A stretch of DNA of 46,890 bases from Caldifarciminota bacterium (GTDB taxonomy: Bacteria > Hydrothermota > Hydrothermia > Hydrothermales > JAJRUZ01): assembly GCA_024277525.1 (NCBI GenBank), contig JAJRUZ010000077.1:1-46890 (forward strand), given 5' to 3'. Position 1 is the stretch's first letter; every line of letters starts with the position of its first letter. The notes beneath the pieces were generated by a model. The model had not been told where the DNA came from, did no database searches, and was given only the letters and a program-made list of their open reading frames with translations. Positions 22,298 through 29,425 of the stretch are shown here, piece after piece. The position numbers and the translations under genes were made by a program.

Positions 22298-22305
<8 letters not shown>

Positions 22306-22786
22306 GACAAGATTCATAGAGGAAACATTTAAAAAGGTTGAAAATATTTTAAAAAAATTAAAAGAAACATCAAATGCAAATGCGGTTTTGTTAATTGATA
22401 AGGCAGGTCAACTTATAACATCGATAGGAGATATAAAGGATCTGGATTTAACCTCTTTTGCAACGCTTTCTGCTGCTGATTTCGGAGCAACGAGTCAGCT
22501 TGCAGAATTGATAGGAGAAAAGAAATTTTCCTCTCTTTACCATCAAGGAGAAAAAAATTCCCTTTATATTTCTCTTGTTGCAAACAGGGTAATTCTTGCG
22601 GTCTTGTTTGACAGTAAAACAACACTCGGACTTGTGAAAGTGAGAACCAGGCATGCTTCAATAGAACTCGAAAAAATACTGGATTCTCTTTTTGAAAAAT
22701 TAAAAGTCTCTCCGAAAAAGGAAATTTTTGATAAAACATTTCTTAAAGAAGCGGAAGAAGAACTTGACAAATTGTTCGGACCATGA
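22298..22786 (+). CDS. Roadblock/LC7 protein, MglB-like
   Basis: A 162-residue protein with a roadblock/LC7 domain (about 20-125): NANAVLLIDKAGQLITSIG, LSAADFGATSQLAELIG and a beta-helix core ending VKVRTRHASIELEKIL. Such proteins are GTPase-activating partners of MglA-type GTPases and define cell polarity in gliding or twitching bacteria. The mglA gene follows after 17 bases, which supports the pairing. The C-terminal helix (about 126-162) is charged. I call it MglB-like rather than MglB because roadblock proteins are hard to subdivide by eye. Confidence 0.85.
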
Positions 22787-22803
22787 AAGGAGGTTTTTTT
22801 TGA

Positions 22804-23397
22804 ATGGCACTTATAAACTACGCTGCAAGGGAAATAAATGTTAAGATTGTTTATTACGGACCCGGTCTTTCGGGCAAGACTACGAATATAAAGTATATTT
22901 ATGAGAAACTTGCTCCGAATTTAAAGGGTAAACTTGTGTCAGTTGCGACAGAACAGGAAAGGACGCTTTTCTTTGATTTTCTCCCGATAGACTTGGGCGA
23001 TGTAAGAGGTTTTAAAACACGATTTCATCTTTACACGGTTCCCGGACAGGTTTTTTATAACGCATCAAGAAGACTGATATTAAAAGGTGTGGATGGTATT
23101 GTTTTTGTTGCTGATTCCCAGATCGAGAGAATGGATGAAAATATTGAGAGCTTTGAAAACATGCTTGAAAATCTTGAGACTTACGGTTTAAGGCTCGAGG
23201 ATATTCCTTATGTAATGCAATATAATAAAAGGGATTTGCCGAATATCGCATCCGTTGAGGAATTGGAGAGAAACCTGAATAAGGACGGTGTCCCTTATTT
23301 TGAAGCAATTGCAACAAAGGGGGTTGGGGTATTTGAAACATTAAAAGAAATTTCAAAAAGGGTAATCAAAGCATTATCCACAAGAGCCCGTACGTGA
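22804..23397 (+). CDS. mglA: MglA-type Ras-like GTPase
   Basis: A 197-residue small GTPase of the MglA family, which switches pilus or gliding machinery between cell poles. Motifs: P-loop GPGLSGKT (19-26), a switch region [39 protein letters not shown] and base-recognition NKRD in MQYNKRDLP. The threonine in HLYTVPGQ replaces the Asp of Ras, which is typical of MglA. GGAGG lies about eight bases before the ATG. The stop overlaps the cinA GTG by four bases. Pilus motor genes follow, in keeping with its role. Confidence 0.95.
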
Positions 23398-24584
23398 AAA
23401 AATTTGCCTGTGTTACCATAGGGAACGAAATTCTCCAGGGTTTCAGAATAGATACGGACTTTTTACATTTAACAAAAAAATTAAAGGAAAAGGGATTTTA
23501 TTGTGTCTTTCATATCACGGTTTCTGACTCAATTGAAGATATTAAAAAAGGGTTAAAGTATGCATCCTCTGAAAGTGATATTATTTTTACAATAGGGGGA
23601 CTCGGTCCGACCCCGGATGATTTAACAAGAGAGGCAATAGCAGAGTTTTTTGATTTAAATCTTGAGTTCAGAGAAGACCTTTTTAAAGAGATAAAAGAAA
23701 AAGAGCCGATGCGTGATAGGGAAAAACATAAAAAATACGGTCTTTTCCCCAAGGGTGCGAAAGTTTTTGAAAATAAAAAGGGACTCGCCTTTGCTTTTTG
23801 TGTTCAAAAAGATAAAAAATGCATTTATTCATTACCGGGTCCGAAAGACGAATTTGAATCCACACTTGAAGAAATAATGAAAGATTTTAAACCTTTTGAA
23901 GATTTCTTTATTTTATATTTTGATTTACCAATGAAAAAAGAAATAGAGATTCAGGAAAGATTAAAGGGAAAAATTAAGGAGGAAAACATTTTCTTTTTGC
24001 CTTATACAGCAGGGGTTATCCTCGGTATAAAGGGAAAGTCCTCTGACAAAGAAAAATTAAAGGAAGTTATTATAAATGAATTTAAGGAAGAAATTTCTTC
24101 GGAGGGGCCGGAAACGCTCGAAAAGGTAGTAGGGGAATTATTGAGGAGGAATAAAAAAACTTTAAGCATTGCTGAAAGTTGTACCGGAGGTCTTCTGGCT
24201 TCAAGAATTACAGATGTTCCGGGAAGTTCGGATTATTTTATAGGTGGAGTTGTTGCTTACAGCAATGAAATAAAGAAAAGAATATTAAAAGTAAAGGAGG
24301 AAGACCTTATAAAATACGGTGCTGTTTCCGAGTCTGTGGTAAAGCAAATGGCAGAAGGGATAAAAAATCTTTATCAGACCGATTTCGGACTCGCAATTTC
24401 CGGAATTGCGGGTCCAACAGGAGGAACCCCCCAAAAGCCTGTCGGAACAGTCTTTCTTGCTGTTTCCTATAGTGATACAACAAGGGTTTTTAAGGAATTT
24501 TTTAAGGGTTCAAGAAAAGACATAAAGTTTAAAAGTTCGCATTTTTTGTTAAATGAGTTGCGAAAAATACTTTTGAAAGTGTAA
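23394..24584 (+). CDS. cinA: CinA family protein
   Basis: A 396-residue two-domain protein. The N-terminal MoaB-like domain (about 1-165, [14 protein letters not shown]) belongs to the COG1058 ADP-ribose pyrophosphatase type. The C-terminal domain (about 240-396, [22 protein letters not shown] and [18 protein letters not shown]) is the nicotinamide-nucleotide amidase part. Together they clear damaged or released NMN, here possibly made by the NAD-dependent ligase encoded upstream. Start is GTG, overlapping mglA by four bases. Confidence 0.94.
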
Positions 24585-24599
24585 TATATTTTTAGAGGT

Positions 24600-26471
24600 A
24601 TGAAAAGGATAAAAAGACTCGGTGAGATGCTGATTGACGCAGGTGTCATAAATGAAGAACAGTTGAAGAAAGCACTCGAAATACAGAAAAAAAACGGAAA
24701 AAGGCTTGGTTCAATATTACTTGAACAGGGATGGGCTACCGAGGATGATATTCTAAAAGTTCTTTCCGAACAATACGGGAATGTACCTGTTGCAAAGAGT
24801 AAGCACCTTCAGAATATACCCGAAGATGTGATAAAACTTGTTCCTCCTCATATTGCAGCAAGATATGATGTCATTCCTGTTGCGAAAAAGGGAAACAATT
24901 TGTTTCTTGCAATGGTGAATCCGGGTGACCATTTTGCGGTTGAAGATGTGAGATTTGTAACGAAGATGGATGTTGTTCCGCTTATTGCCCTTGAAGAAAA
25001 CATACGGGATGCAATCAAAAAATATTACAAAGTTGAAGACATGATGGATCAACTTGTAAAAGTTGAAGATGAAGACCTTGATATAGAGGTTATCGGCGGT
25101 GAAAAAGAAATTGAGAAAACCGGCGAAGCAGGGCTTATTGAGGGCAAGACAGAAGTAGGAGCAGTTGAAAAAGCAGGAGAGAAGGGAGAAATCCAAGAAA
25201 CCCTGGAAGATTTAATTATTTCAGGGGAAATGGAAGAAATAGGAGGAGCAGGAAGCAAGGCGGAGGAAGAGGAGGCAGAGGATATCACTGCTATAACCGA
25301 TGAAAAATCTCCTATTGTGAAACTTGTTAATGTTATTTTATATGAATGAATAAGAAGAAGGGCATCGGATATTCACATAGAACCTTATGAAAAAGAATTA
25401 AGAGTGAGATACAGAATAGACGGTGTTTTACAGGAAGTTCTTAAAAGGGATGTAAAGTTAATAAGACCCATAGTTGCGAGAATTAAAGCAATGGCAAAGA
25501 TGAAATTGGAAGAAAAAAGAAGACCGCAGGACGGAAGAATAAGATTAAAAATGGGAGAAAAAAGAATAGATGTTCGTGTTGCAACAATTCCGACCGTGTA
25601 TGGAGAAAAGGTTGCAATGAGAATTCTTGATAGGTCGGCTATTGAATTAAAATTAGATACCTTGGGTTTTGAGGAAGAATCCTTAGAGGCTTTCCGAAGG
25701 GCTATCAGGAATCCGAATGGAATTATATTGGTCACCGGCCCTACAGGTAGCGGAAAAACAACGACCCTTTATTCCGCACTTCAAGAATTGAATTCAATTG
25801 AAGTTAATATTTCCACGGTTGAAGACCCTGTTGAGTTCACACTTCACGGGATAAATCAAGTTCAGGTAAAAGAAGATGTGGGTATGACATTTGCAGCCGG
25901 GTTGAAAGCATTTTTAAGGCAGGACCCTGATATAATAATGGTGGGAGAAATCCGTGACCTTGAAACAGCGGAAATCGCTATCAGAGCTTCTTTAACAGGA
26001 CACCTTGTTTTATCAACCGTTCATACAAACACTGCTGCCTCAACGGTGACAAGACTTATAAACATGGATATAGAGCCGTTCTTGATTGCATCCACACTCT
26101 TGGTTGTTGCTTCTCAGAGATTGGTAAGGAAAATATGTGAAAACTGCAAGACAGAATATGAGCCGGATAAAAGTGTATTAATGGACCTTGACCCTGAAAA
26201 TCCTGATAGATTTGAAGGAGTCAAATTTTACATAGGTAAAGGATGTGAAAAATGTTTCGGCACAGGGTATAAAGGAAGAGCAGGATTATTTGAAGTAATG
26301 CCGATAACCAAGAGAATAAGGGAATTAATTTTAAAAAAGGCACCTACATTTGAAATTGAGCAAGCAGCAATAGAGGAAGGGATGATTACTTTAAGGGAAG
26401 CAGGAATAAGAAAGATATTAAGGGGTATTACAACCCCTGATGAAGTTTTAAGGGAAACAAAAATGGAGTAA
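24600..26471 (+). pseudogene. PilB/GspE-type ATPase with in-frame TGA
   Basis: One reading frame of 623 codons interrupted only by TGA at 25347-25349 (codon 250). Before it: an MshEN domain (1-145, two RLGxxL-type c-di-GMP motifs, RLGEMLIDAG and RLGSILLEQG) and an acidic linker (145-235). After it: IRRRASDIHIEP, Walker A GPTGSGKTTT (about 380), DPDIIMVGEIRD, HTNTAAST and a four-Cys zinc site (CENC, CEKC). The neighbouring paralogue aligns across the TGA with no gap, having Ala there. No frameshift or other lesion is visible. It is either a recent nonsense mutation, a sequencing error, or a recoded codon. If translated in two pieces, the second has no good start before GTG 25404. An AGAGG site precedes the ATG. 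Confidence 0.8.
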
Positions 26472-26475
26472 AATC

Positions 26476-28233
26476 ATGGCATTAAAAATAGGAGAACTTT
26501 TGGTAAAATCCGGTCTTATAACAAAGGAACAACTTGAAGAAGCATTAAAAAAACAAAAAGAACTCGGAAAAAGATTAGGTTCAACCCTTGTTGAGCTGGG
26601 TTATATTACTGAGAAACAGCTTGTAGAAGTTCTTGCAAAACAGCTCGGGGTGCCTGCAATTGACCTTTCAACAGTTGAGGAAATCCCCGAGGATGTATTG
26701 AAATTACTTCCTCCGGAGATATGTTATCAATATCAGGTAATCCCGCTTGCAAGAAAGGGTAATGTTTTGTTTGTTGCTATGGTTGACCCATCAAATCTTC
26801 AGGCACTTGAAGATATAAAATTCAGGGTCGGAATAGATGTAGAACCCGTGATAGCAGTGGAGTCTTCTTTAAGAAAGGCGCTTGAAAGATTTTATCCGGA
26901 ATATGAAAAAACCCTTGTAAAAGTTGAGGAAGAGGAAGAAAAGGAAAAGGAAGAAGAACTTATAGGATTTGATATTGAGGAAATACAGGTTGAAGATTAT
27001 GAGGATGAAATGGATGAGAAAGAATTGCTGAAGCAAGGGAAGGATACCCATATAACGCGTCTTGTTAATAAAATTATAAAGGATGCTGTAACAAGGAGAG
27101 CATCCGATATTCATATAGAGCCGTTTGAGAAAATATTAAGGGTAAGATTGAGAATTGATGGTGTTTTACAGGTTTATGCGGATTTGCCTCAAAGATTAAA
27201 GGCTGGGGTTGTTTCAAGAATAAAACTCATGTGTTCTCCTAACCTTGACATATCTGAAAGAAGAAAACCACAGGACGGAAGAATACAGCTTAAATTAAAG
27301 GATAACGACGGTAAAGACAGGATGATTGATTTCCGTGTATCTGTGGTTCCTACTGTTTTCGGAGAGAAAGTTGTTATGAGAATCCTTGATAAATCAGGTT
27401 TATCCCTTGATTTGAGGGTTCTGGGTTTTGAAGAGGACGACCTTGAGAGGTTTATGAGGGCAATTCACTCCCCTTACGGTATTATACTTGTAACAGGTCC
27501 GACAGGTAGTGGAAAGACAACGACTCTTTATTCTGCACTTTCAACTTTAAATACACCGGATAAACAAATTGTTACAATAGAGGACCCTGTTGAATATAAC
27601 ATTGAGGGAATAAATCAGGTTCAGGTAAACAGGGAGGTGGGGCTTGATTTTGCAAATGCTTTAAGGGCATTTTTGAGACAGTCGCCCGATGTAATTCTTG
27701 TGGGTGAAATAAGGGACTCCGAAACAGCAGAAATTGCAATAAGAGCAGCTCTAACAGGACACCTTGTTTTTTCCACAATTCATACAAATGATGCACCTAC
27801 AACGGTTGATCGTCTTGTTGATCTCGGAATCCAGCCTTATCTTATTGCTTCCTCTGTAATCCTTATTCAGGCACAGCGTCTTGTAAGAAGAATCTGTAAA
27901 AATTGTAAAAGGGAGACAACTTATGATCCGGGTGTATTGAAAGAATTGGGAATTCCTGAGGATAAATTGATGGAAATGAAGTTTTATAAAGGTGAGGGAT
28001 GTCCGGAGTGTAACGGTACCGGTTATAAAGGCAGAATAGGAATTTATGAAGTCATGAGTATTACTCCGAAATTAAGGGAACTTATTCTTAAAGGAGCAAC
28101 TTCAGATGAAATAAGGGAAGCAGCAAGGGAAGAAGGAATGCGAACATTAAGGGAAGACGGTATTGTTAAAATTGCAAAAGGAATTACAACCGTTGAGGAA
28201 GTTTTAAGAGTGACAGCAGCAGGTGAGGAGTAA
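26476..28233 (+). CDS. pilB: Type IV pilus assembly ATPase PilB
   Basis: A 585-residue hexameric motor that powers pilus extension. It has an N-terminal MshEN domain (KIGELLVKSG and RLGSTLVELG motifs, about 1-145), an acidic linker (about 150-185), an N2 domain starting TRRASDIHIEPFEK, Walker A GPTGSGKTTT, an Asp box in EDPVEYNIEG, Walker B ILVGEIRDSETAE, a His box HTNDAPTT and a zinc site with CKNC and CPEC. All are intact. It sits four bases after the stop of the interrupted paralogue and may carry the pilus-extension function alone. PilT follows. Confidence 0.93.
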   Translation: MALKIGELLVKSGLITKEQLEEALKKQKELGKRLGSTLVELGYITEKQLVEVLAKQLGVPAIDLSTVEEIPEDVLKLLPPEICYQYQVIPLARKGNVLFVAMVDPSNLQALEDIKFRVGIDVEPVIAVESSLRKALERFYPEYEKTLVKVEEEEEKEKEEELIGFDIEEIQVEDYEDEMDEKELLKQGKDTHITRLVNKIIKDAVTRRASDIHIEPFEKILRVRLRIDGVLQVYADLPQRLKAGVVSRIKLMCSPNLDISERRKPQDGRIQLKLKDNDGKDRMIDFRVSVVPTVFGEKVVMRILDKSGLSLDLRVLGFEEDDLERFMRAIHSPYGIILVTGPTGSGKTTTLYSALSTLNTPDKQIVTIEDPVEYNIEGINQVQVNREVGLDFANALRAFLRQSPDVILVGEIRDSETAEIAIRAALTGHLVFSTIHTNDAPTTVDRLVDLGIQPYLIASSVILIQAQRLVRRICKNCKRETTYDPGVLKELGIPEDKLMEMKFYKGEGCPECNGTGYKGRIGIYEVMSITPKLRELILKGATSDEIREAAREEGMRTLREDGIVKIAKGITTVEEVLRVTAAGEE

Positions 28234-28237
28234 AATG

Positions 28238-28260
28238 TTAAAAGGTTCTATCCCTTTAAA
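28238..28260 (+). promoter_or_regulatory. T-arm-like hairpin before pilT
   Basis: The core stem AAAGG/CCTTT closes a 7-base loop TTCTATC, with two more pairs beyond one mismatch. It fills the 43-base gap between pilB and pilT and ends 16 bases before the pilT ATG. No Shine-Dalgarno is present in that gap. Confidence 0.45.
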
Positions 28261-28276
28261 AGAAAAATAAAATAAA

Positions 28277-29425
28277 ATGCAAGGAAATATACCACCAAAA
28301 CCCGGACTTAAAAAGCCGGCTGCAAAGCCTGAGGCAGAAGATAAAAAGACCAGGGTCCAGATGGTTTCCCTATTACAGGAGATGGTTCAGAGAGGAGCAA
28401 CCGATTTACATATTTCGGCAGGTTCACCTCCGATGTTCAGAATTGATGGAGTTCTTGTTCCCTCTTCTTACCCACCCGTTACTCCCGAACAAGCTCAGGC
28501 ACTTGCATATTCGGTTATGAGAGATGAACACAAAAAGAAATTTGAAGAGGAGTGGGAATGCGACTTCTCCTTCGGAATATCAGGACTTTCAAGATTCAGG
28601 GCTAATGTTTATAAACAGAGGGGAACTGTCTCAATTGCAATAAGAACGATTCCTTTCAGAATAAGAACTTTCAAAGAACTCGGAATTCCTCCTGTTGTTG
28701 CAGAACTTGCTTCAAGACCCAAGGGGCTTATTTTGGTTACAGGACCAACAGGATGCGGTAAATCAACCACACTTGCAGCTATTATTGATAAAATAAATGC
28801 GGAAAGAAGGTGTCATATTATTACAATTGAAGACCCTATTGAGTATCTCTTTGCAAATAAAAAAGCATTAATTTCCCAAAGACAGGTTGAGAGTGATACA
28901 AAGAGTTTTAAACATGCTTTAAAGTATGCACTGAGACAGGATCCTGATGTTGTTATGATCGGTGAGATGAGGGACTATGAGACCATTGCAGCTGCATTAA
29001 CAATTGCAGAGACAGGACACCTGACACTTGCAACACTTCATACAAACTCCGCTGTTGAGTCAATTAACAGAATAATTGATGTCTTTCCCCCGCATCAACA
29101 GCAACAAGTTAGGGCACAGCTTGCATTTGTATTACTCGGAACAATAACTCAGGCGCTTTTACCGAAAGTGGGAGGAGGAAGAGTTCTTGCAGCAGAAGTG
29201 ATGGTTGCGACCCCTGCTATTAAAGCTCTTATAAGAGATAACAAATTGCACCAAGTTTATGGCGTAATGCAGGCTTCCCAGAAATACGGAATGCAAACGA
29301 TGAACCAAGCGATATTTAAATTGTATATGGAAAGGAAAATAACACTTGAAACCGCTCTCAATTACTCCCCCAACCCCGAAGAACTGGAACAGATGATAAA
29401 AGAAAAAATACCCGCAATGAGATAA
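28277..29425 (+). CDS. pilT: Pilus retraction ATPase PilT
   Basis: A 382-residue motor that retracts type IV pili. After a short proline/lysine-rich leader comes the PAS-like N domain (GATDLHISAGSPPMFRIDG), then Walker A GPTGCGKSTT, EDPIEYLF, Walker B VVMIGEMRDYETI, HTNSAVESINRIIDVFP and the PilT-specific C-terminal block resembling AIRNLIRE (AIKALIRDNKLHQ). It lacks the MshEN domain of the two PilB proteins, as expected. The zinc-binding cysteines of PilB are also absent. Its partners PilC, PilM-Q and pilin are not in this window. Confidence 0.95.
   Translation: MQGNIPPKPGLKKPAAKPEAEDKKTRVQMVSLLQEMVQRGATDLHISAGSPPMFRIDGVLVPSSYPPVTPEQAQALAYSVMRDEHKKKFEEEWECDFSFGISGLSRFRANVYKQRGTVSIAIRTIPFRIRTFKELGIPPVVAELASRPKGLILVTGPTGCGKSTTLAAIIDKINAERRCHIITIEDPIEYLFANKKALISQRQVESDTKSFKHALKYALRQDPDVVMIGEMRDYETIAAALTIAETGHLTLATLHTNSAVESINRIIDVFPPHQQQQVRAQLAFVLLGTITQALLPKVGGGRVLAAEVMVATPAIKALIRDNKLHQVYGVMQASQKYGMQTMNQAIFKLYMERKITLETALNYSPNPEELEQMIKEKIPAMR

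Follow-up and report, generated by a model that had tools for sequence, protein, structure and literature searches.

PilB proteins, the extension ATPases of type IV-A pili (TIGR02538), combine an MshEN domain (PF05157) with a T2SSE ATPase domain (PF00437). The gene described here, pilB-1, encodes a protein that, if read through its one interruption, likewise has a complete T2SSE domain. It resembles PilB further in an N-terminal MshE-like motif (NF053729), predicted by profile to bind c-di-GMP, and in adjoining a second PilB gene and a gene for a PilT-like ATPase. It differs from PilB of the TIGR02538 type in a single in-frame TGA codon and in a long, Glu-rich and poorly conserved linker at about residues 150-240; its score of 668 bits lies just below the TIGR02538 cut-off of 676.

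Two other kinds of described case are relevant to the TGA codon. With bacterial selenoproteins, which depend on UGA, a SECIS element and SelA, SelB and SelC, pilB-1 shares an in-frame UGA within a conserved protein; unlike them, it comes without the machinery, a SECIS or Cys-containing homologues. The second kind is the false stop that arises from a consensus base error in a draft assembly. Here there is likeness in two respects: the three stop types occur in the proportions of random substitution, and conserved and essential genes are struck while showing no other decay. Unlike false stops confirmed with reads, the present case rests on sequence comparison. A literature search found nothing. 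Of the options listed in the preliminary description, a read or consensus error now stands first and a recent nonsense mutation second; selenocysteine is rejected and stop-codon readthrough is unsupported. Very probably, the gene is intact, and the TGA arose because one base of the assembled consensus is wrong or because the consensus adopted a minority allele there.

The interrupted gene and its tandem neighbour

The window analysed is the entire contig C68 (46,890 bases) of a draft genome, G000, which comprises 2.34 Mb in 102 contigs of up to 194 kb. pilB-1 occupies positions 24600..26471 of the forward strand. It starts with ATG at 24600 and amounts to 623 codons when read through the TGA, which is codon 250 (25347..25349, forward strand). 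As first described, this codon is followed by 373 sense codons; the frame then ends with TAA at 26469-26471. The description of the product as an otherwise intact PilB/GspE ATPase also holds: T2SSE (PF00437) matches residues 234-618 over profile positions 3-370 of 370 (E = 1e-140), and the Walker A motif GPTGSGKTT is present, as are the MshEN domain and the MshE-like motif at the N-terminus. The TGA falls within the T2SSE domain. What pilB-1 lacks in the assembly, for a gene of this type, is an uninterrupted frame. So clean an interruption in a gene is not chance, although about 13 of this kind occur in the portion of the assembly covered (see below).

Directly downstream lies pilB-2 (26476..28233, forward strand), an intact tandem paralogue that, in agreement with the preliminary description, has Ala at the codon aligned to the TGA. 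The PilT-like ATPase gene follows at 28277. The wider neighbourhood (22298-29425) places genes for a Roadblock-domain (MglB-like) protein and a small Ras-like (MglA-like) GTPase directly upstream of cinA, the two tandem pilB genes and the pilT-like gene; small GTPase matches are also found close to pilB in the three same-family relatives. The linker between the MshEN and ATPase domains is evolving fast, with an identity of about 36% vs about 81-92% in the flanking domains (comparison with G001 and G003).

Sixty related genomes were searched for pilB-1, and the four nearest are referred to as G001-G004. Three of these belong to the same family. Candidatus Hydrothermus pacificus is a relative from the same order; its locus L045 lies on a contig of 82,771 bases that is apparently contig C9 of G004. 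In all four, pilB-1 is uninterrupted, with 70-81% identity across its full length, and no homologue in any aligned relative has an internal stop. The proposed check of homologues at codon 250 yields sense codons throughout the four: two of the same-family genomes have GGA and the other one GCA, while the same-order genome has GCT. GGA and TGA differ by a single base. Among 28 homologues, a tally that excludes the stop of the window itself, the residue at this site is Ala in 20, Gly in five, Ser in two and Val in one; Cys occurs in none of them.

Both sides of the stop are under purifying selection. Past the stop, pN is 0.065-0.069 and pS about 0.7 (vs G001 and G003), and this pN is similar to that between intact relatives compared with each other. 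No further lesions were found in pilB-1, nor any departure after the stop from otherwise invariant columns. With normal purifying selection and no odd residues after the stop, pilB-1 either still works or lost its function only very recently. An older pseudogene is rejected on the lack of further lesions together with a pN after the stop like that of intact relatives. The preliminary description had envisaged a plain pseudogene in the event of sense codons in relatives and accumulating lesions; only the former are found.

A very young pseudogene would show no other lesions, and it could have arisen from the GGA of two relatives by one base change. The main alternative to an error is accordingly a genuine, very recent nonsense mutation by which the sequenced population has lost pilB-1 function, a loss that the adjoining paralogue pilB-2 might make tolerable; it is nevertheless unlikely. 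The two pilB genes are kept adjacent in all four nearest relatives, which suggests that they are non-redundant, and the stray stops found throughout the assembly, single-copy essential genes included (see below), make an error likelier.

The stop might also divide pilB-1 so that the MshEN and ATPase portions are made as two proteins. The first common in-frame start past the TGA is a GTG at 25404..25406 (forward strand), 18 codons downstream of the stop. A restart at this position would lie inside the T2SSE domain and lose the conserved ASDIHIEP stretch; moreover, the gene is split in no relative, and by-eye inspection reveals no obvious ribosome-binding site before 25404. Such a split is highly improbable.

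Decoding of the TGA codon

Before and after the stop, the frame stays open and conserved, as it would be if the TGA were decoded. Selenocysteine insertion, a suppressor tRNA, or near-cognate or programmed readthrough would then give a full-length ATPase plus a short product. The machinery for such decoding was looked for in G000, and the check for selA, selB and selC proposed with the selenocysteine option returns nothing above cut-off. The best match to SelB (TIGR00475) reaches 162 bits, below the cut-off of 242, and is a 407-codon frame of EF-Tu length. SelA (TIGR00474) has no match in G000-G003 and only a weak, sub-cut-off match in G004. For tRNA-Sec (SelC, RF01852), nothing in G000 exceeds the cut-off, and the top three matches are tRNA-Ser and tRNA-Leu. 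None of the 47 tRNA matches in G000 has a UCA anticodon. A normal prfB (RF2; 475 bits) is present, and TGA terminates 137 of 358 long frames, which bears out the earlier view that the code is not globally changed.

The pairing of TGAATA with TATTCA across a 17-base loop (25347..25375, forward strand) exists as originally pointed out, and the doubt expressed there about a convincing bacterial SECIS is justified. The stem is weak, not SECIS-like and no more stable than shuffled sequences (fold z = -0.02; of 200 shuffles, 93 equal or exceed it in stability), and no Rfam SECIS family matches after the pilB-1 TGA. A selenoprotein is rejected on every count, namely SelB, SelA, tRNA-Sec, the SECIS hairpin and Cys or Sec in homologues. 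A code with reassigned TGA is rejected as well, given the lack of a UCA tRNA, the retention of prfB and the use of TGA as a stop. Absence is not absolute in a draft genome, yet the independent decoding tests all agree. The relatives, which carry Gly or Ala at the site and not Cys or a stop, argue in the same direction, as does the lack of TGA bias among the stray stops of G000. Decoding of the TGA is accordingly very hard to credit.

Stray stops across the assembly

A coding-potential scan alone proved too noisy, because same-frame neighbour genes mimic interruptions, and a census based on a relative was used instead. With tblastn, ORFs from G001 (1.2 Mb), a genome of the same family, were aligned to 1.04 Mb of G000, a span of under half of G000. 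A stop was counted if it was isolated and had 15 aligned columns on each side with at least seven identities. This gave 15 automatic matches. Inspection by eye removed two that did not seem to fall in true coding sequence: C20:9136 is apparently located before the real start, and C20:3361 apparently belongs to an antisense frame. Their removal can only lower the count.

The remaining 13 isolated in-frame stops lie in otherwise intact genes, within 134,329 aligned codons of G000. The reciprocal control, which is one genome, contains none in 132,043 codons of G001; at the rate of G000, zero stops would be expected there with P = 3e-6. Eight of the stops are TAA, three TGA (pilB-1, C21:9780 and C54:17237) and two TAG. 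Random single-base substitution in the codon usage of G000 predicts 49% TAA, 25% TGA and 26% TAG; the observed mix fits, and TGA is not in excess among the census stops (p = 1). This implies about 6e-4 substitutions per base. At such a rate, a gene of pilB-1 length is predicted to contain about one wrong base, and about 6% of such genes a false stop. The census also contains two frameshift candidates (C56 and C22).

The stray stops outside the window are found on contigs C11, C7, C26, C54, C83, C20, C21 and C4 (loci L296, L305, L217, L225 and others). CTP synthase (pyrG, C11) has two TAA codons in the only full-length copy in G000, and Obg (obg, C7) has one TAA in its sole full-length copy. 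RmlA (rmlA, C26) is interrupted by a TAA and an M42 peptidase (C54) by a TAG. All four genes are intact in G001-G004. Most bacteria cannot live without CTP synthase and Obg. Since truncation of the sole CTP synthase and the sole Obg is implausible in a living population, assembly errors must account for most of the stray stops. Genuine pseudogenes could be present among the 13. Isolated TAA and TAG codons in G000, again including single-copy essential genes, also leave programmed readthrough, or a change specific to TGA, without support. These same stops could be accommodated if unusually leaky termination let the organism translate through isolated TAA, TAG and TGA codons in many genes, pyrG and obg among them, with pilB-1 made at full length; this is the most improbable of the readings considered.

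Stops of all types thus occur elsewhere in G000, in essential genes too, and not in the control (13 vs 0). With such a rate of false stops across the assembly, the TGA of pilB-1 needs no further explanation. Judging from the relatives and from the assembly-wide stops, this particular base is very probably wrong in the assembly and not truly mutated. Against an error, it may be said that estimated completeness (96.5%) and contamination (0.6%) of G000 are good, and that real recent nonsense mutations look identical gene by gene. The census does not distinguish sequencing error from strain-variant mixing or amplification damage. If the consensus is wrong at this base, codon 250 is most likely a sense codon in the living organism, and the pilB-1 protein would be made in one piece, by no special mechanism.

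In the assembly of G000, roughly one codon in 10,000 seems to be a false stop. Any gene break, pseudogene call or claim of recoding drawn from this assembly needs read support, and pilB-1 serves mainly as a warning. The interruptions would be remarkable if real; nothing found favours that. A further feature of the assembly concerns tRNA-Pro: there are two genes with anticodon GGG and two with CGG, all of them near contig ends (C35, C95, C44 and C23; loci L177, L187, L162 and L166), perhaps because contig ends are duplicated or overlap.
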